Positions 81 to 51,626 of a DNA stretch of 64,000 nucleotides are shown here, one piece after another. Position 1 is the first letter of the stretch; each line of letters begins with the position of its first letter. The position numbers were made by a program, and so were the translations under genes. A model generated the notes under the pieces. It searched no databases and had not been told where the DNA came from. It saw nothing but the letters and a program-made list of their open reading frames with translations. The stretch comes from Akkermansiaceae bacterium (lineage in GTDB: Bacteria > Verrucomicrobiota > Verrucomicrobiia > Verrucomicrobiales > Akkermansiaceae), in NCBI GenBank assembly GCA_023301765.1, contig JALZUC010000013.1, positions 1 through 64,000 of the forward strand, read 5' to 3'.

Positions 81-217
81 ATTTTCTGATGTTTGCACTC
101 GGCGAAAAGTTAAAATCACCGAAGGCGGTGCGAGTATTTCCATCTTGGCACATTGTGCAAGGTTTTTTGTTATAAATTTCTGGTTTTATTAATGTCTAAC
201 ATTATCATTTTAAAATT

Positions 218-38602: not shown

Positions 38603-39883
38603 ATGAATCCTACGGAATATCAGGCACCAGACACCGCGGCCAAGGCACAGGCTGGGATCGACTCAAATCAAGCCGCACTCGCCGGTGATGATTACCAAGC
38701 AGAGGCTCAGGATATGCTGGGCGAAAAGATGATACTCAACATGGGTCCATCTCACCCCGCTACCCATGGTGTTCTGAGACTAGTCCTAGAGCTAGATGGT
38801 GAGATTGTCACCAAGTGTGACCCCGATATAGGCTACCTCCACCGTGGTGACGAAAAGATTGCTGAGAGTATGCATTATAATCAGTTTGTGCCCTACACAG
38901 ACCGTCTAGACTACCTTGCCCCACTGGCCAATAACGTTGCCTACGCATGTGCGGTAGAAAAACTCATGGGCTGGGAGCTACCACCACGAGGCCAAGCCGT
39001 GCGCGTAATCTGCTGTGAGCTAGCACGCATAGCATCTCATATGCTAGGAGTGGGCGTATGTGCCATGGACGTAGGCGCCATGACAGTTTTTCTCTACACA
39101 TTTGAAGAGCGTGAAAAGACCTATAACCTCTGCGAGCAACTTACGGGTGCTCGTTTCACCACATCCTACACCCGCGTAGGTGGTCAGATCCGCGATATGC
39201 CAGAAGGCTTTATCGGACAGCTAGAAAAGTTCCTCGATGAATGCACCAATAGCATCCATGAAATCTCTAAACTGCTCGATAGAAACAAAATCTACATGAC
39301 GCGTATGTGTGATGTAGGTGTCATCTCCGCAGACGACGCTATTAACTGGGGACTAACTGGGCCTAACCTACGTGGGTCTGGTATCACACGTGACCTCAGG
39401 AAAGATAATCCATACCTTGGCTACGAGAAATATGATTTTGATATCCCAATTGGCGAAAATGGCGACTCCTATGATCGCTACCTCGTCCGCATGGAAGAAA
39501 TGCGCCAATCTATCCGCATCATACGCCAAGTCCTCGCAGACCTCCCAGAGGGTGGTGTAAACATTGCAGACTCAAAGAATCTACTCCCAGCCAAAGAAAA
39601 GGTCATGACCAGCATGGAGGAACTCATCCACCACTTCATCGTATCCACTCAGGGCATCGATGCCCCAGCTGGTGAAGTCTACTTTGGCGCGGAGAACCCT
39701 AAAGGCGAACTTGGATTTTATATTAACTCCAAGGGCGGCGGAGTGCCGCACCGCATGAAGATCCGCTCCCCATCCTTTGTAAACCTATCCATCCTCTCAC
39801 ACATGATGCCCGGCCACATGATTTCTGACGTACCAGCCATCCTCGGTTCGCTCGATTTCGTCATGGGTGAATGTGACCGATAG
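38603..39883 (+). CDS. nuoD: NADH-quinone oxidoreductase subunit D
   Basis: This is a peripheral-arm subunit of complex I near the quinone site. The 426-aa protein contains MGPSHPATHGVLRLVLELDG, PDIGYLHRGDEKIAE and YTDRLDYLAPLANNVAYACA, and ends with the LGSLDFVMGECDR tail that is the standard NuoD C-terminus. It is not fused to NuoC, whose gene is absent upstream. First gene of a run of eleven nuo genes, preceded by a 200-bp control region. Confidence 0.96.
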   Translation: MNPTEYQAPDTAAKAQAGIDSNQAALAGDDYQAEAQDMLGEKMILNMGPSHPATHGVLRLVLELDGEIVTKCDPDIGYLHRGDEKIAESMHYNQFVPYTDRLDYLAPLANNVAYACAVEKLMGWELPPRGQAVRVICCELARIASHMLGVGVCAMDVGAMTVFLYTFEEREKTYNLCEQLTGARFTTSYTRVGGQIRDMPEGFIGQLEKFLDECTNSIHEISKLLDRNKIYMTRMCDVGVISADDAINWGLTGPNLRGSGITRDLRKDNPYLGYEKYDFDIPIGENGDSYDRYLVRMEEMRQSIRIIRQVLADLPEGGVNIADSKNLLPAKEKVMTSMEELIHHFIVSTQGIDAPAGEVYFGAENPKGELGFYINSKGGGVPHRMKIRSPSFVNLSILSHMMPGHMISDVPAILGSLDFVMGECDR

Positions 39884-39919
39884 ACACCTACTACAACTCT
39901 GAAAACTTCCGTTTAAAAA

Positions 39920-40450
39920 ATGGACACTCCCACTACTTTCCCACCCTTTGCGGTAACGCCCGAGATCGAAGCAGAGGCAGACGCACGCATCCGCCAGTAC
40001 CCGGATGATCAGAAGCGCTCTGCCGTACTTCCCCTACTTCACATCATTCAGCACAAATATGGCTTTATCAATCCTGAAGCTACAGAATGGGTAGCTCAGA
40101 AGCTAGAGCTTCAGCCCATGCAGGTGCACGAAGTAGTATCATTCTACCCAGGACTGCGAGAGCACTCACCTGGTAAATTCCACTTCCGAGTCTGCCGCAC
40201 ACTCTCCTGCGCTATGGCTGGCTCTGCAGAACTCATGGAGCGTATCTGTGAACTCACTGGCATCGACCGCACTCAAAGCGACTCACACCATAACCCTATC
40301 GCCGTTTCGCCCTGTGGTCAGTGGTCGGTAGAATTTGCAGAATGTCTCGCCTCCTGTGGCACCGGCCCAGTCTGCCTAGTAAACGATGATTTTCATGAAG
40401 CTGTAGCCCCGGAAAAAGCCGAAGAACTCCTTGGCAAATATAACGCCTAA
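39920..40450 (+). CDS. nuoE: NADH-quinone oxidoreductase subunit E
   Basis: The 24-kDa-type peripheral subunit holds a 2Fe-2S cluster and is a partner of NuoF in the NADH-oxidising module. The 176-aa protein shows the thioredoxin-like domain with cluster ligands in CRTLSCAMAGSAEL and CLASCGTGPVC. It lacks the C-terminal helix-hairpin-helix extension found on NuoE of many alphaproteobacteria. That type of domain is instead on NuoJ here. Its stop lies 11 bp before nuoF. Confidence 0.95.
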   Translation: MDTPTTFPPFAVTPEIEAEADARIRQYPDDQKRSAVLPLLHIIQHKYGFINPEATEWVAQKLELQPMQVHEVVSFYPGLREHSPGKFHFRVCRTLSCAMAGSAELMERICELTGIDRTQSDSHHNPIAVSPCGQWSVEFAECLASCGTGPVCLVNDDFHEAVAPEKAEELLGKYNA

Positions 40451-40461
40451 CCACCTCTCCC

Positions 40462-41856
40462 ATGTCCTCTATCCAATATCTGCCCGGTAAAGAGCCCGAT
40501 CCGCGCGAGCACCGATTGATTTTTAAAAATATCGATCGCTCAGGCTGGGACGCTTCCATTGACTGTTACCTCAAAGACGGCGGCTACGAACAGCTCAAAA
40601 AAGCTATTAAACTAGAGCCCTCCGCCATTACCAATGAGGTAAAAGCCTCAGGTCTCCGTGGTCGTGGAGGTGCAGGATTCCCAACTGGAGTAAAGTGGGG
40701 CTTCATCCCACCGAACAATACCAAGCCAGTCTACCTTATCTGTAACTGTGATGAGTCTGAGCCAGGGACATTTAAAGACCGCTACATCGTCCACCAAGAC
40801 CCCCACCAGCTCATTGAGGGCATGGTGATTTCAGCCTACGCCGTAGGTGCTCACGTAGCTTACATCTACATGAGAGAAGAGTTTCCAGAGGCAGCTCAAA
40901 TCATTGAAAAATCCATTGCCGATGCACGCGCGAAGAACTTTATAGGCAAAGACGTTTTAGGCTCTGGCTTTGATCTAGAAATCTATGTGCACCGTGGTGC
41001 AGGAGCCTACATCTGTGGTGAAGAGACTGGACTCATCGAATCGCTCGAAGGTAAACGTCCATATCCACGCATTAAGCCCCCCTATTTCCCAGCAGCGCTT
41101 GGCCTCTACATGGCGCCCACCATCGTAAATAACGTAGAATCCCTCTGCCACGTCAAACACATCATGGAGATGGGTAGTGAGGAATACGCTAAACTCGGCA
41201 GCCCCAGAAACACAGGCACCCGTATCCTCTGCGTATCAGGTGATGTCAAAAAACCTGGCTACTATGAAGTACAGGTCGGAAAAATTACCATGGGCGAACT
41301 ACTCAACGATGTTTGTGGTGGTCCACTCGATGGCAGAAAGTTTAAAGCCTGTATCCCAGGAGGTTCATCCTCCAAGATCCTGCGCTGTGATGAAACCTTC
41401 AAAATAGGGAGAGGTGATGACGAAAAGGAACTCTCCTTCTTTGATATCCCTATGGACTTTGACACCATGGCCGCCTGTGGCACCATGGCTGGCTCCGGTG
41501 GAGTCATCGTCCTCGATGATTCCCGTAAAATGTCATGGGTTCTCAATAACATCAACCACTTCTACGCCCACGAATCCTGCGGACAATGCACACCATGTCG
41601 TGAAGGCTCCATGTGGATGCGTAAGATCTCAGACCGCATCGTAGAAGGAAAAGCCACCCCTGAAGATATCAAAACTCTTGAGGAAGTAGCCTACCAGATC
41701 GATGGCCGCACCGTCTGCGCCTTTGGAGAAGCCTCCTCATGGCCAGTAGAAGCCATGATCGACAAATTCCGTGATGAACTCACCTCTGAGACATCTGAGG
41801 ATAATGAATACCTCTCTGAAGAAGCCCAAAAGCAACTGAAATACATTAGCCAGTAA
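40462..41856 (+). CDS. nuoF: NADH-quinone oxidoreductase subunit F (NADH-binding)
   Basis: This is the NADH- and FMN-binding subunit that starts electron flow. The 464-aa protein has the Gly-rich nucleotide sites GLRGRGGAGFPTGVKWG and NCDESEPGTFKDR, GAGAYICGEETGLIESLEG, and the 4Fe-4S ligands in ESCGQCTPCREG with a further Cys in GRTVCAFG. Together with NuoE it shows that the complex accepts electrons from NADH directly. The next start, nuoG, is 34 bp away across a TCCTATAGGA repeat. Confidence 0.97.
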   Translation: MSSIQYLPGKEPDPREHRLIFKNIDRSGWDASIDCYLKDGGYEQLKKAIKLEPSAITNEVKASGLRGRGGAGFPTGVKWGFIPPNNTKPVYLICNCDESEPGTFKDRYIVHQDPHQLIEGMVISAYAVGAHVAYIYMREEFPEAAQIIEKSIADARAKNFIGKDVLGSGFDLEIYVHRGAGAYICGEETGLIESLEGKRPYPRIKPPYFPAALGLYMAPTIVNNVESLCHVKHIMEMGSEEYAKLGSPRNTGTRILCVSGDVKKPGYYEVQVGKITMGELLNDVCGGPLDGRKFKACIPGGSSSKILRCDETFKIGRGDDEKELSFFDIPMDFDTMAACGTMAGSGGVIVLDDSRKMSWVLNNINHFYAHESCGQCTPCREGSMWMRKISDRIVEGKATPEDIKTLEEVAYQIDGRTVCAFGEASSWPVEAMIDKFRDELTSETSEDNEYLSEEAQKQLKYISQ

Positions 41857-41860
41857 TGAG

Positions 41861-41870
41861 TCCTATAGGA
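41861..41870. repeat. TCCTATAGGA palindrome, nuoF-nuoG spacer
   Basis: A 10-bp palindrome lies four bases after the nuoF stop, in the context TAATGAG then TCCTATAGGA. The same palindrome, with a near-identical TAATAAG prefix, follows nuoL at 48691-48700, and a partial copy (TAATAAGTCCAATA) precedes nuoL at 46839. Confidence 0.45.
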
Positions 41871-41890
41871 CCTATAAGACCCATATTATC

Positions 41891-43642
41891 ATGAGTGATT
41901 CTGATACCAAACAACTTCCTAAAGACCTCGCCGCAGAAAATGGCATGGTCAACGTGCAGATTGATGGCCACTGGATACAGGTGCCCAAAGGCACGCGGAT
42001 GATCGAGGCCTGTAAGATGGCTGAGCAAGAAGTCCCCCACTACTGCTACCACCCTAAGCTATCATCACCGGGTAACTGCAGAATGTGCCTAGTCCAAATG
42101 GGTATGCCACCACGCCCAGCCCCCGGAGCTGAACCTAGCTATGGTGAAAATGGCTATCAGGAAATCGGCTGGATGCCACGCCCAGTGATCGCATGTGCCA
42201 ATACAGTCACTGAGAATATGGGTATCCGCACCACTGGCGAACTCGTAGAAAAATGCCGCGAAGGTGTGATGGAATTCCTCCTCATTAACCACCCACTTGA
42301 CTGCCCTATCTGTGACCAAGCTGGAGAATGTAGACTACAAGAATTTTCCGTAGAACACGGCAAAGGTGAATCACGCTTTAAAGAAGACAAAATCAAGAAG
42401 CCTAAAAATGTAAAAATAGGGCCACGCATTCGCCTAGATGATGAACGCTGCATTATGTGTTCACGCTGTATCCGCTTCATGGACGAAGTCGCAGATGAGC
42501 CAGTATTAGGCTTTGCTGAACGTGGCACACACACATCAGTAGGTATCTTCCCCGGTAAGGAGCTCGATAATAACTATGGCCTAAACACTGTAGATTTATG
42601 CCCTGTAGGTGCGCTAACATCTAATGACTTCCGCTTCCAGATGCGCACATGGTTCCTTAAGGAAACAAATAGCATTGATACTAACTGCGGCACGGGATCT
42701 AACATTACCGTCTGGACACGTGGAAATAAGATCTTCCGCATCACCCCACGCCAGAATGATGATGTAAACTCCTGCTGGATGCCAGACTCACATCGCCTGA
42801 ACTACATCTGCCCTACTGATGAAGACAGACTCACAGCCTGCCTAATCAAAGCCGATGGAGTGCATGAAGAAACATGCTGGGAGAATGCACTAGAAGCAGC
42901 CTCTGATGCTCTAAAGCAATTTGAATCCTCAGAAATCGCCATCATCGCCTCTGGTAAACAGACCAACGAAGAGCTCTTTATGATGCGCACACTAGCTGCC
43001 GAACTCGGTTGTGAAAACCTCAGCATCGTCGCACGCGAGCAGAAGTCTGATGACATGCTCATCTCCTCAGATGGTAATGCCAATACCACTGGTGCTAGAC
43101 TCATCTTTACAACTGCCTCACCTGCTAGCCAGCTAACAAATATCCTAGAAGGTGTCCGTAGTGGTACCATCAAGGCTATTATAGCCGCATCTGAAGACCT
43201 CCAAGATGCCGCTGGATTCTCAGCCGATGACCTCGAAGCCCTGGAACTCCTCATCTCTATTAACTGCCGTGCAAATGCCACAGCACAAGCAAGTGACATC
43301 GTATTCCCAGGTGCTGGCCCAGCTGAGAAGCGCGGTAGTATGATAAATATCACAGGCCGCCTTCAGAAGCTCAATGCTGCATGTATCCCACCCGGCGATG
43401 CCCGCTGTGATTGGGAAATCATCCGTGACCTAGCCCTCTCCATTTCTGAAGAAGTAGCACAAGAGGCTCCACAAAGCATCGATGCTCTCTCAAAAAACCT
43501 CACCGCCAGTATCTCAGAACTTGAAGGTAAGCATCTCGCCGCCATCTCTGAACTCGGTGATATCGTTACCGAAACCGGAAATACCATCCCTCTAGTCAAA
43601 CGTGAAGCAGAGCGCAAAGCCAACGGCGAAATCGTAGGATAA
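41891..43642 (+). CDS. nuoG: NADH-quinone oxidoreductase subunit G (short form)
   Basis: This Fe-S subunit carries electrons from NuoEF toward the quinone arm. The 583-aa protein has an N-terminal 2Fe-2S domain (CYHPKLSSPGNCRMCLVQMG), the His/Cys-ligated cluster (HPLDCPICDQAGECRLQE), the 4Fe-4S domain (CIMCSRCIRFMDEV with CPVGALT) and a truncated molybdopterin-oxidoreductase-like domain. E. coli NuoG has about 908 aa, so the C-terminal part is much shortened, as in some other bacteria. The additional N7-type cluster is not evident. Confidence 0.95.
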   Translation: MSDSDTKQLPKDLAAENGMVNVQIDGHWIQVPKGTRMIEACKMAEQEVPHYCYHPKLSSPGNCRMCLVQMGMPPRPAPGAEPSYGENGYQEIGWMPRPVIACANTVTENMGIRTTGELVEKCREGVMEFLLINHPLDCPICDQAGECRLQEFSVEHGKGESRFKEDKIKKPKNVKIGPRIRLDDERCIMCSRCIRFMDEVADEPVLGFAERGTHTSVGIFPGKELDNNYGLNTVDLCPVGALTSNDFRFQMRTWFLKETNSIDTNCGTGSNITVWTRGNKIFRITPRQNDDVNSCWMPDSHRLNYICPTDEDRLTACLIKADGVHEETCWENALEAASDALKQFESSEIAIIASGKQTNEELFMMRTLAAELGCENLSIVAREQKSDDMLISSDGNANTTGARLIFTTASPASQLTNILEGVRSGTIKAIIAASEDLQDAAGFSADDLEALELLISINCRANATAQASDIVFPGAGPAEKRGSMINITGRLQKLNAACIPPGDARCDWEIIRDLALSISEEVAQEAPQSIDALSKNLTASISELEGKHLAAISELGDIVTETGNTIPLVKREAERKANGEIVG

Positions 43643-43662
43643 ACTGACCATATTCTCCATCC

Positions 43663-44787
43663 ATGGATCCCTTTCTCATACTCATAATTAGCACGCTGAT
43701 CAAGATCATCGGCTTCACCTTCATGCTCACCTTACCCATGGTGGCATACTCGGTGTATGCTGAGCGGCGTGTCTCTGCCATTATTCAAGACCGTGTAGGG
43801 CCTAACCGAACAGGTATCCCCCTCACCCTCTTTGGATTTAAAAAAGACCTCCACTTTGCGGGCTTACTCCAGCCACTCGCAGATGGTTTAAAGTTCTTCC
43901 TCAAGGAAGAGCACACCCCAGCTCATGTAAGAAAGTTCTTCTTCTGGATCGCGCCAGTGCTGACTATCGTACCAGCACTCCTTACACTTGCCGTCATACC
44001 GTTTGGTAGCTCGGTCACCGTATTCGGTGAGTCCATTAAACTCGTAATCGCAGATATTGACGCTGGCCCCCTCTTCATCTTTGCCATCGCTTCCCTCTCC
44101 GTCTACGGCATTACCTTTGCCGGCTGGGCATCTAATAATAAATATTCATTCTTTGGTGGTGTGCGCTCATGTGCACAGATGATTTCTTACGAGATCGCCC
44201 TCGGACTCTCCATTATCCCCGTTCTGATGGTCTTTGGTCAGCTAAACCTATCTGACATTGTGCAGTATCAGGCTGATCACGGCTGGCTTTTACTGCCACT
44301 CTGGGGTGAAGGCCTAAGTACCGAGCGCATGGTACTACTCATCCCCCTAATCATCTCATTTATCGTCTTCACCATCTCCATCTTTGCAGAAACGAACCGT
44401 ATGCCCTTTGACCTGCCTGAGTGTGAGACAGAACTTGTAGGTGGATATCATACTGAATACTCCGCCATGAAGTTTGCCCTCTTCTTCATGGGCGAATATG
44501 CAGCCATGATAGTAGGCTCAGCACTCATTGTCACCCTCTTCTTCGGAGGCTGGTCCATTGGCTTTGGCGCAGATGCCTACGTAGCAGAGCTAGCCTTTGG
44601 AGGTCTCATTCACCTTGGCGTCTTCCTCGCTAAAGTTATCGCCTTTATCATCTTCTTCATCTGGGTGCGCTGGACACTACCACGCTTCCGTTATGACCAG
44701 CTCATGAGACTTGGCTGGATCGTTTTCTTTGAACTCGCGCTGGTTAACGTTTTCATCACTGCCGGCATCATGATGCTGATTAACTAA
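43663..44787 (+). CDS. nuoH: NADH-quinone oxidoreductase subunit H
   Basis: This membrane subunit (ND1-like) lies beside the quinone chamber. The 374-aa protein shows the classic signatures YAERRVSAIIQDRVGPNRTG and ADGLKFFLKEEHTP at the N-terminus and FAETNRMPFDLPECETELVGGYHTEY near residue 245. Eight or so TM helices are apparent. It follows nuoG by 20 bp. Confidence 0.97.
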   Translation: MDPFLILIISTLIKIIGFTFMLTLPMVAYSVYAERRVSAIIQDRVGPNRTGIPLTLFGFKKDLHFAGLLQPLADGLKFFLKEEHTPAHVRKFFFWIAPVLTIVPALLTLAVIPFGSSVTVFGESIKLVIADIDAGPLFIFAIASLSVYGITFAGWASNNKYSFFGGVRSCAQMISYEIALGLSIIPVLMVFGQLNLSDIVQYQADHGWLLLPLWGEGLSTERMVLLIPLIISFIVFTISIFAETNRMPFDLPECETELVGGYHTEYSAMKFALFFMGEYAAMIVGSALIVTLFFGGWSIGFGADAYVAELAFGGLIHLGVFLAKVIAFIIFFIWVRWTLPRFRYDQLMRLGWIVFFELALVNVFITAGIMMLIN

Positions 44788-44824
44788 ACACTCATCATCA
44801 GCCTCCTCTAATCAACCATTTCCC

Positions 44825-45391
44825 ATGGCCACTATTAAAGTAACACGCCCTAAGCTTACGCTTTTAGAGAAACTCTACTTCCCATCCATTATGAATGGCA
44901 TGTTTATCACCTTTAAACATGCTGTCAGATCGCTGCGCGGTAAAAGTATCGGTGGAGACTCCATGAATACCTCTGGCCTAGGTATTACCATGCAGTACCC
45001 AGAACAGAAGTGGGATGACCATCTACCTGAGTATTACCGAGGTGTTCCCACACTCGTTACTGACGAGCAAGACCGTGAGCGCTGTGTATCATGTCAGCTC
45101 TGTGAGTTTATCTGCCCACCTAAAGCCATCGCCATCATGCCAGGTGAAATCGAGTCTGATGACCCATGGGCCAAAGTGGAAAAACGTCCTAAAGAATTTG
45201 ATATCGATATGACCCGCTGCATTTACTGCGGTATGTGTGAGGAAGTCTGCCCAGAGCAGGCTATTTTCCTCCGTAAAGATTATGCCATGACCGGGCTTAG
45301 CCGTGCTGATATGGTCAATGATAAAGAACGCCTCTACGAGATCGGCGGTGTGCGCACTGGCCTAGTCAATAAGTGGAACGATATCAAATAA
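44825..45391 (+). CDS. nuoI: NADH-quinone oxidoreductase subunit I
   Basis: This ferredoxin-like peripheral subunit of 188 aa has two 4Fe-4S clusters (N6a/N6b): CVSCQLCEFICPP and CIYCGMCEEVCPE are the two visible ligand sets. Short flanking segments dock it to NuoH. It sits in the usual H-I-J order. Confidence 0.97.
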   Translation: MATIKVTRPKLTLLEKLYFPSIMNGMFITFKHAVRSLRGKSIGGDSMNTSGLGITMQYPEQKWDDHLPEYYRGVPTLVTDEQDRERCVSCQLCEFICPPKAIAIMPGEIESDDPWAKVEKRPKEFDIDMTRCIYCGMCEEVCPEQAIFLRKDYAMTGLSRADMVNDKERLYEIGGVRTGLVNKWNDIK

Positions 45392-45417
45392 CTCAGTAAC
45401 TTTTTTTAAAAAATACG

Positions 45418-46461
45418 ATGCCTTCAATCCTATTCTATCTCTTTGCCGCCCTTATGGTAGCCGGCGGCATGATGGTGGTGCTCATGCGCAACCCTGTCTC
45501 CAGCGCCCTGTCAATGGTGTTGAGTTTTATCGGCCTAGCAGGTCTATTTATCGGCCTAAATGCCTACTTCGTAGGTATCCTACAAATCCTCGTCTACGCA
45601 GGAGCCATCATGGTACTCTTCATCTTTATCATCATGCTAATGGATGTGAAAATAGAGGAGAAAGGTAGCCTCAAACCGGCCGCCGTAGCTGCTGGTGTAG
45701 CCATCCCACTGATTCTTCTTATGCAGTTAATGGGGGTGCTATCCTCTATCGAGAATTCACCTTCAGCACCTGAAATTAACCACGTAGCAGCACTAGCCCA
45801 GACCAATGATGATGGCTCATTAACCTACAAAGAAGGCACGATGATCAATAAGCGTCTTAAGGCTGAAAGGCTTCCTGATACGCACCTGATAGGCTATAAA
45901 CTCTTCACCGACTACAACTTCCCGCTACAAGTTATCGCCGTGCTACTCCTAGTAGCTACCGTCGGCTGTGTAACTCTATCTAAGAAATCCACTCCCAAGG
46001 CAGTAAATAAAAAGCAAATTACACAGCAAAAGCGGATTCCTAAAGTAGCTATTGCCCCTCCAGAAAAAACTAAGGAAGAGCATAAAAAAGAAGCTCCTTC
46101 CGAACAATCCAAAATAGCTAAAACTAAGGAAGCAAATCTCCCAGAATCACAAAAACCCACTGAAGAGGCAAAAGCCCCCCAGACAAAGCCTAGTGACACT
46201 ACTAACGAAGCTAATGGTAATCGTGGTATGATCTACGCGGAACGCCCAGATGACGCAGACGATCTTAAAATCATCTCCGGCATAGGTCCAGTAATTGAAA
46301 AGAAGCTAAATGGCTTTGGCATCTATACCTACAAACAAGTGGCTGACTGGTCAGAGGAAAACATCACAGAATTTGATGGTCTACTCTCCTTTAAAGGCCG
46401 TATCAACCGTGATGACTGGCTCACCCAAGCAGCAGAGTTATACGCGCAAAAAAGCGCCTAA
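45418..46461 (+). CDS. nuoJ: NADH-quinone oxidoreductase subunit J with C-terminal HhH domain
   Basis: Residues 1-190 are the NuoJ membrane subunit (ND6-like): LFAALMVAGGMMVVLMRNPV, then GILQILVYAGAIMVLFIFIIML, and further helices. NuoJ is usually about 165-200 aa, but this one has 347. After the last helix comes a Lys/Glu/Pro-rich linker (about 195-280). A compact C-terminal domain then starts DDLKIISGIGPVIEKKLNGF, followed by GIYTYKQVADW and SFKGRINRDDWLTQA. This is the helix-hairpin-helix domain seen at the C-terminus of NuoE in alphaproteobacteria. Its fusion to NuoJ is unusual. The frame is continuous and nuoK follows normally. Confidence 0.92.
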   Translation: MPSILFYLFAALMVAGGMMVVLMRNPVSSALSMVLSFIGLAGLFIGLNAYFVGILQILVYAGAIMVLFIFIIMLMDVKIEEKGSLKPAAVAAGVAIPLILLMQLMGVLSSIENSPSAPEINHVAALAQTNDDGSLTYKEGTMINKRLKAERLPDTHLIGYKLFTDYNFPLQVIAVLLLVATVGCVTLSKKSTPKAVNKKQITQQKRIPKVAIAPPEKTKEEHKKEAPSEQSKIAKTKEANLPESQKPTEEAKAPQTKPSDTTNEANGNRGMIYAERPDDADDLKIISGIGPVIEKKLNGFGIYTYKQVADWSEENITEFDGLLSFKGRINRDDWLTQAAELYAQKSA

Positions 46462-46501
46462 CACCCTGAAAATCAAATAACTTTCTAACCCAACCTCTTC
46501 C

Positions 46502-46831
46502 GTGTTTGAAATCTTACCTTCATTAAACGAATACTTATTCGCTTCTGGACTACTCTTTGCCATTGGCCTGGCGGGTGTCATCATCCGGCGCAATATCATC
46601 GTTATCTTCATGTGCCTTGAGATGATGCTCGCTGCAGCCTCACTAACTCTCGTGGCATTCTCCAGATTTAATATGGTGGGTGGCCTGCCTGATTATGATG
46701 GCCAGATGCTGGTCTTCTTCATCATCACTGTGGCTGCGGCTGAAGTGGCAGTAGGCTTAGCCATTATTGTTTCCCTTTACCGTGCAAGGCAGACTGTCAA
46801 CACAGATGACCTCACCTCACTCAGAGGTTAA
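46502..46831 (+). CDS. nuoK: NADH-quinone oxidoreductase subunit K
   Basis: This three-helix membrane subunit (ND4L-like) of 109 aa has the conserved [19 protein letters not shown] with its membrane Glu, and [18 protein letters not shown] with the second Glu. The start codon is GTG. It lies 41 bp after nuoJ and 46 bp before nuoL. Confidence 0.96.
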
Positions 46832-46877
46832 TTTTTTTTAATAAGTCCAATACAAGCTATACGAGCTATTTCCTACC

Positions 46878-48686
46878 ATGAATCCTTGGTTACTATTTAT
46901 TATTCCCTTCGCATCCGCTGCTATCATTCAGCTGGGACTTAAGCGAAGCGCAATGGCGTCCTCCCTATTATCTACCCTCAGTGTGGTAGCTACATTTGTT
47001 ATTGCCTGCACTTTATTAGGCTCTGATCAGTCTGACTCCTGGACATGGGTAAAGGCTGGCAGCTTTGAGCTAAATATCGGCTACAATCTTGACCAGCTAG
47101 CCACGGGTATGATGATAGTAGTCACAGGTATTGGTATGCTCGTTCATATCTTCTCACTAGGCTACATGAAGACAGATTCAGCTAAGGCTCGCTACTTCGG
47201 CTGCCTTTCCATGTTTATGTTTTCCATGACGGGTATCGTACTCGCCTCGAACTTCGCCATGATGTTCATTTTCTGGGAGCTAGTGGGTCTTTCCTCTTAC
47301 CTACTCATCGGTCACTGGTATCATAAGGATACTGCTGCTGACGCTGCTAAGAAGGCATTTCTCAGTAACCGTATTGGTGACTTTGGCTTTATGATAGGTA
47401 TCCTCATGCTGTGGCGTATCACCGGCACGGTGGTCTTTGCTGATATGGATGGAAGTGCCCTAGGAAATGTCTGCAGCTGCCTCGCAGGTGCGGCTATTCT
47501 CCTCACCTTCTGTGGTGCTGTGGGTAAGTCTGCTCAGCTACCACTACACATCTGGCTACCAGATGCGATGGAGGGCCCTACTCCTGTCTCTGCACTTATT
47601 CACGCCGCCACCATGGTAGCGGCTGGTGTATACATGATGGCGCGTCTCTTCCTCTCACTAGGAGTGACTCCAGAGAATGTTGAGATCCTCAGCTACGCAC
47701 CACAGGTCATCGCATGGACGGGTGGTATCACCTCCCTTGTCGCTGCACTGATGGCGACACAGCAGAATGACATTAAGAAAATTTTGGCCTACTCAACTCT
47801 TTCTCAGCTCGGTTACATGGTGATGGCGGTGGGCTTGATCGCTCCAGAGGCAGGTATGTTCCATCTCTATACTCACGCATGGTTTAAGGCTCTTCTATTC
47901 CTCGGCTCTGGTGCAGTGATCTACGCATGCCATCACGAACAAGACATCTGGAAAATGGGTGGCCTACTCAAGAAAATGCCTGTTACGGCGATCACCTTTC
48001 TGGTGGGAACGCTAGCTCTAACAGCAGTGCCATTTACCGCAGGTTTCTACTCCAAGGAAGAAATCCTCTACGCAGCTAAGGGCACTCCACTCTTTTATCT
48101 CGCTGCATTTGTAGCTCTGCTCACCACTTTCTACATGCTCCGCCTTTTCATCGTGGCCTTTCTAGGAAAACCACGCGAGCACGGTGCTAAGGAAGCTAAA
48201 GAAGTAGCGCCTATCATGTCGCTGCCTCTCATCCTACTCGCCATCATGGCCTTTGCTGCGCCACACATCAGTCAGATTTTCCCAGTGCCTACTGAGTGGG
48301 GTTTTCACTTCAAGATTCTCCCTGATCTTAACAGCTCAGTCTTCTGGACATCCATTGGCGTATTTGTAACCGGTGCTGTAGCTGCCTTTGTCGTCTACTC
48401 TGGGAAGGACAAAGACCCGATCAACATCCCCCTCTTCCGTAATAAGTTCTACTTAGACGAAATCTATCAAAAGCTCATCACTATCTGCCAAGATGCAGTT
48501 GCCGCTATTATTCACCTGTTAGACGAATTTCTCATCGGAGTTTTACTTGTGGGAGGTGCTACACGCTCCGCGCAGGGAGTTGGTAATATATTCCGCCGCT
48601 TTGCTCAAAATGGCAGCCTCAGTAACTACGCCTACCTCATGGCCTTAGGCTCTGTTCTTGTTATCTACTTTACAGTTTTTGCCTAA
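46878..48686 (+). CDS. nuoL: NADH-quinone oxidoreductase subunit L
   Basis: This is the antiporter-like distal membrane subunit (ND5-like). The 602-aa protein shows the MFIFWELVGLSSYLLIGHWY segment, then AVGKSAQLPLHIWLPDAMEG, PVSALIHAATMVAAGVYM, and ILAYSTLSQLGYMVMAVGL. The C-terminal part after about residue 500 includes the start of the lateral helix. A TCCTATAGGA palindrome follows its stop. Confidence 0.97.
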   Translation: MNPWLLFIIPFASAAIIQLGLKRSAMASSLLSTLSVVATFVIACTLLGSDQSDSWTWVKAGSFELNIGYNLDQLATGMMIVVTGIGMLVHIFSLGYMKTDSAKARYFGCLSMFMFSMTGIVLASNFAMMFIFWELVGLSSYLLIGHWYHKDTAADAAKKAFLSNRIGDFGFMIGILMLWRITGTVVFADMDGSALGNVCSCLAGAAILLTFCGAVGKSAQLPLHIWLPDAMEGPTPVSALIHAATMVAAGVYMMARLFLSLGVTPENVEILSYAPQVIAWTGGITSLVAALMATQQNDIKKILAYSTLSQLGYMVMAVGLIAPEAGMFHLYTHAWFKALLFLGSGAVIYACHHEQDIWKMGGLLKKMPVTAITFLVGTLALTAVPFTAGFYSKEEILYAAKGTPLFYLAAFVALLTTFYMLRLFIVAFLGKPREHGAKEAKEVAPIMSLPLILLAIMAFAAPHISQIFPVPTEWGFHFKILPDLNSSVFWTSIGVFVTGAVAAFVVYSGKDKDPINIPLFRNKFYLDEIYQKLITICQDAVAAIIHLLDEFLIGVLLVGGATRSAQGVGNIFRRFAQNGSLSNYAYLMALGSVLVIYFTVFA

Positions 48687-48690
48687 TAAG

Positions 48691-48700
48691 TCCTATAGGA
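48691..48700. repeat. TCCTATAGGA palindrome, nuoL-nuoM spacer
   Basis: The second copy of the 10-bp palindrome lies four bases after the nuoL stop, in the context TAATAAG then TCCTATAGGA. Spacing from the stop codon matches the copy after nuoF. Confidence 0.45.
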
Positions 48701-48723
48701 TCAATACTATCTAATTTTTCACC

Positions 48724-50133
48724 ATGTTATTTGCTCTTCTACTTATTCCCATAGTGGCCGCTATCGCGATCTTTTTGGGGTCGCCTTCTCGCATCACAGC
48801 GCTGGCCGCGGCTCTGGCTAATATAATCGTAGCTGCATTCGCCATTACTCAAGGTTCTTGCAGTGTTAGTTTCCAAGTATTGGAAAACCCTAATATCAAT
48901 CTATCACTGGGTCTCTACGATGGTATGAGCGTGATTATGCTTATCCTCTCCGTGCTAGTAACCTTGGCCGCTGTCTATAGTGGTAAGTGCCCAGAAGGTA
49001 GGGAGAAACTATGGTTCTCTAGTACGTTACTAATCGCAGCTGGCGCTATAGGTGCCTTTCTTGCCACAGATGTCTTTTTCTTCTACGCCTTCCACGAGCT
49101 CGCTCTTATCCCTACCTTTCTCATGATCGGTATGTTAGGTAGAGGTGATCGTAAGGCTGCCGCATGGAAGATCACCATCTATCTAGCCACTGGCTCTATC
49201 ATCCTCTTAGCTGGATTACTCCTAGCCATGGGTCATCTCGATAGCTTTGCATTCTCTGATCTCAAGGCTATCCCTGCTGAGCACCAGAACACAGTAGCAC
49301 TTCTCCTCATCATCGGATTTGGCACATTGGTCTCCCTTTTTCCGCTGCACTCCTGGGCTGCCCCAGCCTATGCATGTGCCCCCGCCCCTGTCTCCATGTT
49401 ACATGCTGGGGTTTTGAAAAAGTTTGGCCTATACGGGATTCTCCGCATAGGTATGGAGGTAGCTCCAGAGGGTATGGCTCACTGGTTACCGTGGATCTGC
49501 GTTCTTCTCCTAGGAAACATTATCTGGGTGGGTCTAGTGACTCTGAATCAAAAGCGCCTAGATCTTATGCTCGGAAACTCCTCCGTCATGCACATGGGCT
49601 ACATCTTTCTCGCCATCGCAGCGCTAGCCGCTAATGGTGATAATGAAATAGCCAAGCCAGCCGCTGTCTTACTCATGTTCGCACACGGTATTTCCATCGC
49701 CCTCCTCTTCTCTCTGAGCGCTATGCTGGAGGAAAAGACAGGCACTCTAGAAATAGCTCAGCTAGGCGGACTGGCGAAGAAGGCTCCTGCCTTTGCCTTT
49801 CTCTTTGGCCTCGCTGGCATGGCCTCTATCGGTCTGCCAGGCTTGGCTAACTTCGCTGGTGAAGTGATGGTCTTCTTTGCTGGATTTGCTGACTGGTCAC
49901 CTAAGGATGGCCTAGGCTGGGTGCAAATTACCACCATTATAGCCCTCTGGGGCGTAGTTCTCAGTGCTGTCTACATGCTCCGGGCTTTCCGTAATATTTT
50001 CCAAGGACCACTGGTGAAAAAAACCAGCGATGCGTGTGACATCTGCTCATGTGATGTCATCCCAGCCTATTTACTCTCAGCGGTTCTGCTGATAGTGGGT
50101 ATTTATCCTCAGCTCATTCTCCAGTTTCTCTAA
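48724..50133 (+). CDS. nuoM: NADH-quinone oxidoreductase subunit M
   Basis: This is an antiporter-like membrane subunit (ND4-like) of 469 aa. FFYAFHELALIPTFLMIGM, with the conserved Glu, is near residue 120. LVSLFPLHSWAAPAYACAPA and VSMLHAGVLKKFGLYGILR lie near 200-240, and GNSSVMHMGYIFLAIAA near 285. The usual LPDAH-type motif is replaced by SWAAPAY, a mild divergence. It is followed 47 bp later by nuoN. Confidence 0.95.
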   Translation: MLFALLLIPIVAAIAIFLGSPSRITALAAALANIIVAAFAITQGSCSVSFQVLENPNINLSLGLYDGMSVIMLILSVLVTLAAVYSGKCPEGREKLWFSSTLLIAAGAIGAFLATDVFFFYAFHELALIPTFLMIGMLGRGDRKAAAWKITIYLATGSIILLAGLLLAMGHLDSFAFSDLKAIPAEHQNTVALLLIIGFGTLVSLFPLHSWAAPAYACAPAPVSMLHAGVLKKFGLYGILRIGMEVAPEGMAHWLPWICVLLLGNIIWVGLVTLNQKRLDLMLGNSSVMHMGYIFLAIAALAANGDNEIAKPAAVLLMFAHGISIALLFSLSAMLEEKTGTLEIAQLGGLAKKAPAFAFLFGLAGMASIGLPGLANFAGEVMVFFAGFADWSPKDGLGWVQITTIIALWGVVLSAVYMLRAFRNIFQGPLVKKTSDACDICSCDVIPAYLLSAVLLIVGIYPQLILQFL

Positions 50134-50180
50134 GCCGACTTTTCTCTATTCTCTCTAACCGATAACCGATCACTTTTCCA

Positions 50181-51626
50181 ATGCAGGCGCATTACATCGA
50201 ATTCATCACCGTTGGCTTTGGCCTACTCCTGCTAATGCTAGAAGCATTTAGTAAAGGCAATAAATCACGCCTCGGCCTACTTGCCGCAGCTGGACTAACT
50301 ATTATCCTCATCCTCCAGTTCATGGTCTGTCCGTGTGCTGCTATTCCAGAGTGGATGTCACGATTCTATAAGTATGATTCAGTGGCACTGTTCTACAAGG
50401 TGATCGCTCTGGTAAGTACTATCCTAGTGCTCCTAATGGCAGTGGATTTCCGCAAAGTGCTCTCTCGCTATACATCTGGCGATGAGACGAACTCTGGGCT
50501 TGGTGAATTCTACTGTCTGCCAGTCTTTGCCTGTGCTGGACTTATGTGGATGGCATCTGCAAATGATCTCGTAAGTATCTTTGTAGCTCTTGAGCTAGTG
50601 ACCATTACCTTCTATGTCATGGTAGCATACATGCGCCGTAATGTAGGCTCTCTTGAGGCTGGTGTAAAATACCTCATCCTCGGCGCACTTTCCACCGGCT
50701 TCCTTGTCTACGGTATTGCCTGGATCTATGGCGCTATGGGCACAACTGACCTCGCGACCATCACCAGTATCATTAAAAATGGTGAATTTGCAGAAGCTAA
50801 ACTTACCTACCTACTATTCGGTATTGCTCTTATGTTGATTGCTCTTGGATTTAAGATTGGTGCTGCCCCTATGCAGCTCTGGATTCCTGATGTCTATCAA
50901 GGTGCACCTACACCTATCACAGCCTATCTGTCAGTAGCATCTAAGGCCTCTGGATTCCTTGTACTAATGCTCGTGATCGGTCCATTTATTACATGGTCAG
51001 CCACCAGCACCCAAGTAACACTCATTCTTTCCATTATGGCTGGCGCCACCCTCCTCTACGGAAACTTGACTGCTATTAATCAGGAAAATTTCAAACGCCT
51101 ACTTGCTTACTCATCCATTGCCCACGCAGGGTTTCTTCTTATGGGTGTGGCATCTGGTGACTTCACCTCCGTTTCCTTCTATCTAGGCACCTACTTACTA
51201 ATGACCTTCTCAGCATTCTTTATCCTTGCTCTTGTGCGTGATCAGGAAAACAGCGATACCATTGACGCCTTTGATGGCTTAGCTAAGAGAAACCCTATAT
51301 TGGCAGCTACTCTAACTATTACTATGGCGGCAATGGCTGGTATTCCGCTCACCGCTGGTTTCTTGGGTAAGTTCTTAATATTTTCCGCAGCGATTCAGTC
51401 AGAAGCTTCATGGTGGTTAATTGCTATTGGATTTATCAGTGTAGCTGCTGGATTCTACTACTACTTAAAGGTGGTAAAGGCCATGTATTGGAATGCTCCA
51501 CGCAGTGAAAAAAGTATCCAAGTGCCTATTATTACTAAGGTAGTCTTGGTATTACTTACTATAGGAATCTTAGTCTTTGGTATCTGGCCTCAGCCAATCT
51601 TTGATTTGCTCAGACTCTTAAATTAG
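50181..51626 (+). CDS. nuoN: NADH-quinone oxidoreductase subunit N
   Basis: This is an antiporter-like membrane subunit (ND2-like) of 481 aa. LVSIFVALELVTITFYVMVAYM holds the conserved Glu, and KIGAAPMQLWIPDVYQGAPTP and RLLAYSSIAHAGFLLMG hold the Lys and hinge residues. The remaining helices, including FFILALVRDQENSDTIDAF, follow NuoN. It is the last gene of the nuo run. A 7-bp hairpin follows before xapX. Confidence 0.96.
   Translation: MQAHYIEFITVGFGLLLLMLEAFSKGNKSRLGLLAAAGLTIILILQFMVCPCAAIPEWMSRFYKYDSVALFYKVIALVSTILVLLMAVDFRKVLSRYTSGDETNSGLGEFYCLPVFACAGLMWMASANDLVSIFVALELVTITFYVMVAYMRRNVGSLEAGVKYLILGALSTGFLVYGIAWIYGAMGTTDLATITSIIKNGEFAEAKLTYLLFGIALMLIALGFKIGAAPMQLWIPDVYQGAPTPITAYLSVASKASGFLVLMLVIGPFITWSATSTQVTLILSIMAGATLLYGNLTAINQENFKRLLAYSSIAHAGFLLMGVASGDFTSVSFYLGTYLLMTFSAFFILALVRDQENSDTIDAFDGLAKRNPILAATLTITMAAMAGIPLTAGFLGKFLIFSAAIQSEASWWLIAIGFISVAAGFYYYLKVVKAMYWNAPRSEKSIQVPIITKVVLVLLTIGILVFGIWPQPIFDLLRLLN

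Follow-up and report, generated by a model that had tools for sequence, protein, structure and literature searches.

The window, by which we mean the whole 64,000-nucleotide stretch of Akkermansiaceae DNA analysed here, carries the complex I genes from nuoD to nuoN on one strand (Table 1). NuoH, K, L, M and N were assigned by sequence and gene order. The nuo genes of this genome are split, with nuoD-nuoN in the window (38603-51626) and the only nuoA found on another contig (G000 C54, 20061-20363). NuoJ is part of the proton-pumping membrane arm of complex I and normally has little beyond its helices. The nuoJ of the window is a single reading frame of 347 aa (ORF list and translation), in which a membrane core is followed by a long linker and a helix-hairpin-helix (HhH) domain.

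Table 1. Position of NuoJ-HhH and associated features in the window
Feature	Position	Strand	Basis
nuoD-E-F-G-H-I-J-K-L-M-N gene run	38603..51626	+	ORFs; Pfam for NuoD, E, F, G, I, J
NuoE, 176 aa, without HhH domain	39920..40450	+	only 2Fe-2S_thioredx, residues 22-174
NuoJ-HhH, 347 aa	45418..46461	+	ORF list, translation
NuoJ core, residues 1-190	45418..45987	+	Oxidored_q3, hydropathy and charge, predicted helices
NuoJ transmembrane helices (n = 5)	residues about 4-22, 27-45, 57-75, 90-108, 170-188		hydropathy and charge
NuoJ linker, residues 191-267, K/E/P/A-rich	45988..46218	+	composition, disorder, drift against G008
Appended HhH domain, residues 268-347 (conserved unit 268-345), contains GMIYAERPDDADDLKIISGIGP	46219..46458	+	
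HhH motif start DDLKIISGIGP, residues 281-291	46258..46290	+	alignment A1

The fused NuoJ and its conservation

The membrane part is a regular NuoJ: residues 17-187 match Oxidored_q3/NuoJ (E = 5.8e-37; 127.1 bits, Pfam cut-off 33.2), there are five transmembrane helices, and the gene is flanked by nuoI and nuoK. Helices were also predicted at residues 4-22, 26-46, 51-78, 87-113 and 167-190 in a structure prediction of the full-length protein, whose confidence is low (pLDDT 60) and which is used for helix positions and disorder only. The linker is predicted to be without secondary structure, with pLDDT down to about 31. By the positive-inside rule it should face the cytoplasm, because a cluster of lysines follows immediately after the fifth helix. 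Predicted alone, the appended domain folds into a compact, helical unit (mean pLDDT 92.1). It matches model A1 with E = 2.1e-37 and shows the family pattern DDL...G...L...G...Q...W...R..R..W..Q of invariant A1 columns (D14, D15, L16 and G21 are among those invariant in the alignment), including a GhG hairpin, GIGP, at residues 288-291. The first-pass annotation had recognised this domain correctly and begun it about 13 residues too late; its start is at about residue 268, with the lead-in GxIYxxRPDDADDL. The same annotation had NuoE without the domain, and indeed a thioredoxin-like ferredoxin domain is all that was matched in the NuoE of the window.

It is evident that the fusion is genuine. 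The window genome is a draft of 68 contigs, and an assembly error or a false joining of nuoJ to another gene would be suspected if close relatives were all free of the domain. However, NuoJ-HhH was found in seven genomes of two genera. The sister genome G008 encodes a NuoJ-HhH of 329 aa that is 71% identical from end to end, and fused proteins of 342-387 aa occur in another genus, in genomes G458, G463, G515, G516 and G517. Linkers differ among the six further genomes, which reduces the chance of such an error to practically nil. The claim that a folded domain is joined to NuoJ in one frame is thus confirmed. In genus g3 of the same family, several NuoJ proteins (L064-L071) are enlarged to as much as about 308 aa by a long insertion; they were rejected as further fusions since the extra length precedes the last helix and the HhH domain is absent. 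A profile search of genome contigs with the whole NuoJ-HhH protein gave no usable match.

Between the window genome and G008, identity is 82% in the core, 81% in the domain and 27% in the linker, and pN/pS, at saturated synonymous sites, is 0.14 in the domain and 0.67 in the linker. Given these differences in identity and pN/pS, the HhH domain appears to be kept by selection and the linker only as a freely changing spacer. It might be argued that the domain is a functionless passenger, mobile in origin, that became joined to the end of nuoJ and was tolerated there, which would agree with its patchy presence and repeated loss (see below); the contrast between the domain and its adjoining linker makes this very improbable.

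Relatives and hosts of the domain

The NuoJ tail (residues 199-344) matches the C-terminal part of the NuoE model PRK12373 (E = 5.5e-29) and also the C-terminal parts of the L21 (PRK12278), S2 (PRK12311) and phasin PhaH models. These matches range from E = 5.5e-29 to 3.2e-14 and cover the domain parts only; against the whole NuoE-HhH model PRK12373, NuoJ-HhH scores 102 bits, below the cut-off of 514. Among solved structures, two chains match as well: one is protein-O from the RC-LH1 complex of Dinoroseobacter shibae, and the other, in 9wqv, is named as a complex I 41 kDa subunit. In nearly all host proteins examined, the domain is C-terminal and follows a long low-complexity or coiled-coil stretch.

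In a draw across the phylum, the domain is carried by 8 of 289 genomes, all within the window's own order; among closer relatives it was found in 62 of 143. Within the window's genus it is present only in G000, G004 and G008. In the order, the domain is carried by the ribosomal protein L22, the most frequent host among those read, by L15 in a single genus, by coiled-coil proteins with a membrane anchor, by NuoJ and by a few giant proteins with tandem copies. The window genome has three copies, on NuoJ, on L22 (C32; L031 3832-4560, 242 aa, domain at residues 159-242) and on a membrane coiled-coil protein (C31; L032 4203-6484). The gene of the last adjoins an OmpA-family gene on the same strand, and the two could possibly form an operon linking the domain to the cell envelope. 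L15 with a C-terminal HhH domain is encoded at L101 1495-2271 and L117 8039-8833. In G468, L22-HhH and L15-HhH, two proteins of one ribosomal subunit, are on the same contig about 6 kb apart. Neither is modelled as such in NCBIfam, where the L22 fusion model PRK12279 matches L22 and linker only, and no L22-HhH family model was found in Pfam either. Giant membrane-anchored proteins of related genomes carry HhH copies in tandem (L110 2235-10652, 2805 aa, 24 copies; L111 1750-10353, 2867 aa, 23 copies; L112 832-4389, 1185 aa, 8 copies) and are candidate scaffolds. In G516, which is 94% complete, NuoJ-HhH is the only copy of the domain found, and L22 is short.

When the domain from PDB 9wqv was used in a profile search, 80 loci of Alphaproteobacteria were recovered, most of them in Rhodobacteraceae, which bears out the earlier statement that a related domain is appended to NuoE in Alphaproteobacteria. 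We sampled 12 of these alphaproteobacterial genomes, in which the domain is mostly borne by NuoE, by an adjacent protein-O-type membrane protein and by L21. The Salipiger thiooxidans genome also encodes a caspase-like-looking protein with one HhH domain of the same family in its middle (L252 604-2640). NuoE-HhH was not found in any genome of the window's order. NuoJ is a new host for a known mobile domain: our literature search found no earlier description, nor any paper on a fusion of L21, L22 or NuoJ with an HhH domain.

Origin of the NuoJ domain

In the domain tree, whose resolution is limited by its roughly 70-80 columns, all domains of the window's order are on one side of a branch (97/91), which places the origin of the NuoJ domain within this order. 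NuoJ and L22/L15 domains share one side, weakly (72/66). With the GxIYxxRPDDADDL lead-in retained, the NuoJ domains of all seven genomes group as a single clade (96/93) among those of L22; with this motif removed, their monophyly is neither supported nor rejected (p = 0.30). NuoJ received a local copy, most likely one of the L22 type, in a single event or a few related ones within this family. The first-pass annotation had instead supposed that the domain moved between complex I subunits. A passage from NuoE to NuoJ could explain why the NuoJ tail strongly matches the NuoE model PRK12373, but that model fits the L22- and L15-type domains of this order about equally well. A clade of NuoJ and alphaproteobacterial NuoE domains was rejected (p-AU = 6.2e-5), the domains of the order share one side of the tree, and none is found on a NuoE of the order. 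We consider this transfer hardly credible.

The NuoJ cores follow genera in their own tree, and the fused cores are not one clade. The unfused NuoJ proteins of G034 and G469 nest among fused ones and end in stubs of the same linker (IPKV), and a comparable tail (IPTI) closes the unfused NuoJ of G009, a genome of the window's genus. Likewise, L22 without the domain keeps a long linker in G005, G006, G009, G012 and G013 of that genus. We read these patterns as pointing to one old fusion or very few, followed by repeated loss, with some lineages keeping a linker stub; the 3′ end of nuoJ may also have spread between genera. Since it was lost repeatedly, the NuoJ fusion seems to be dispensable.

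The trio of hosts in Alphaproteobacteria is L21, NuoE and a membrane protein, against L22/L15, NuoJ and a membrane protein here. Because the same trio is seen there on other subunits, we conclude that each of the two lineages separately attached one mobile domain to its ribosome, its complex I and a membrane anchor. The domain was thus recruited to complex I twice, by NuoE in Alphaproteobacteria and by NuoJ here, which accounts for the resemblance between the NuoJ tail and the NuoE extension.

A possible flexible tether and known systems

Our best explanation, in which we have about even confidence, is that the NuoJ C-terminus serves as a flexible tether between complex I and a partner in the cytoplasm. 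This reading is drawn from architecture, because a folded module on a long flexible string is appended to the ribosome, complex I and membrane anchors in two lineages. The roughly 75-residue disordered linker would carry, on the cytoplasmic side, a small folded HhH module from a promiscuous family appended by flexible linkers to large assemblies. The module would bind one cytoplasmic partner common to its hosts, and complex I would thereby be kept near ribosomes, a membrane scaffold or the nucleoid. It is in favor of a tether that L22 and a membrane coiled-coil protein of the window genome bear this domain too, and that the domain is as constrained as the core and the linker is free. These results suggest that the module could be a general tether for large cell machines. 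Since G516 has the NuoJ copy only, the module is unlikely to depend on pairing with further copies of itself. The repeated loss of the fusion also counts against the tether.

The partner might be DNA. If the HhH domain bound DNA without sequence preference, it would keep complex I and L22-bearing ribosomes near the chromosome. The PhaH model recognises the C-terminal part of NuoJ (E = 3e-15) as well as L22-HhH, L15-HhH and L21-HhH, and a review (PMC13052382) reports nonspecific DNA binding by Caulobacter PhaH through its HhH domain, together with disorganised granules when PhaH is absent. The domain has the GIGP hairpin, and a fold search with it gave weak HhH neighbors, none with E below 0.001, that include DNA-binding proteins (the N-terminal domains of Rad51/RadA, DNA polymerase IV) and also NusA AR2, which is bound to the protein SuhB in 6ib8 (TM 0.57/0.68). 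However, the match of residues 282-321 to HHH_5 (PF14520; 18.3 bits) is under the Pfam gathering cut-off of 27. Furthermore, NuoJ, L22 and L15 domains have a net charge of about -5 over their 62-residue core, which is unusual for a nonspecific DNA binder; the membrane type averages +1.7. All seven NuoJ domains lie between -3 and -8, in contrast to the basic charge expected for such binding. We therefore regard a tether to the nucleoid as a serious candidate that is nonetheless unlikely to be right; the clear acidity of the NuoJ and L22 domains tips the balance slightly from DNA towards a protein partner.

Alternatively, the domain could act solely inside complex I, guiding assembly or shielding a surface, with no outside partner. 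NuoE and NuoJ occupy different arms of the complex. Conservation of the domain in cis, as strong as that of the NuoJ core, its presence on alphaproteobacterial NuoE and the failure to find a second copy in G516 agree with such a role; the location of its two complex I hosts on different arms, its occurrence on such varied proteins as L22, L15, L21, PhaH and the coiled-coil membrane proteins, and the long, unconserved linker do not, and we think it rather improbable.

A more specific form of the tether would be a co-localisation system, in which the acidic copies on L22, L15 and NuoJ dock on membrane-anchored scaffolds whose own copies are neutral to basic or are present many times in tandem (up to 24 per protein). 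If so, translation and respiration would take place at common membrane sites, and the L21/NuoE/protein-O-type arrangement would have arisen separately in Alphaproteobacteria. This is a long shot, and NuoJ-HhH as the sole copy found in G516 is against its obligatory version.

NuoJ bears a portable module of the kind also found on the ribosomal and membrane proteins of its own genome, and on NuoE and L21 in another lineage. The shared hosts point to a shared task of ribosome and complex I, and what has been the orphan domain of several NCBI 'fusion' models becomes a testable question: which partner is bound?

Among known systems, NuoE-HhH of Rhodobacteraceae (NF009040, PRK12373) is similar to NuoJ-HhH in that a complex I subunit carries the C-terminal domain behind a long linker of low complexity. 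It differs in its host, a ferredoxin subunit of the peripheral arm rather than a membrane subunit, and its domains are separate in the tree and without the GxIYxxRPD lead-in of the NuoJ type. The ribosomal fusions L21 (NF008915/NF008916), S2 (NF008966), L22 and L15 share both domain and architecture with NuoJ-HhH, on the ribosome instead of complex I, and the NuoJ domain is most likely closest to the L22-type domain, which is present in the same genome. The phasin PhaH (NF045508), the work on which is reportedly that of Salinas et al. 2023, has a matching C-terminal HhH domain and likewise sits on a large body, but its host is a storage-granule protein. The result on its DNA binding cannot simply be carried over because the NuoJ domain is acidic. 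In protein-O of D. shibae RC-LH1, a membrane anchor and a long flexible loop precede a C-terminal domain without resolved structure; its gene lies between nuoE and nuoF, and its role is stated as not known (PMC12079452). Protein-O (PDB 8yy9 chain O) thus has an anchor, a flexible stretch and the same C-terminal domain (E = 2.9e-13) in common with NuoJ-HhH, whereas it is a separate small protein of a photosynthetic core complex.
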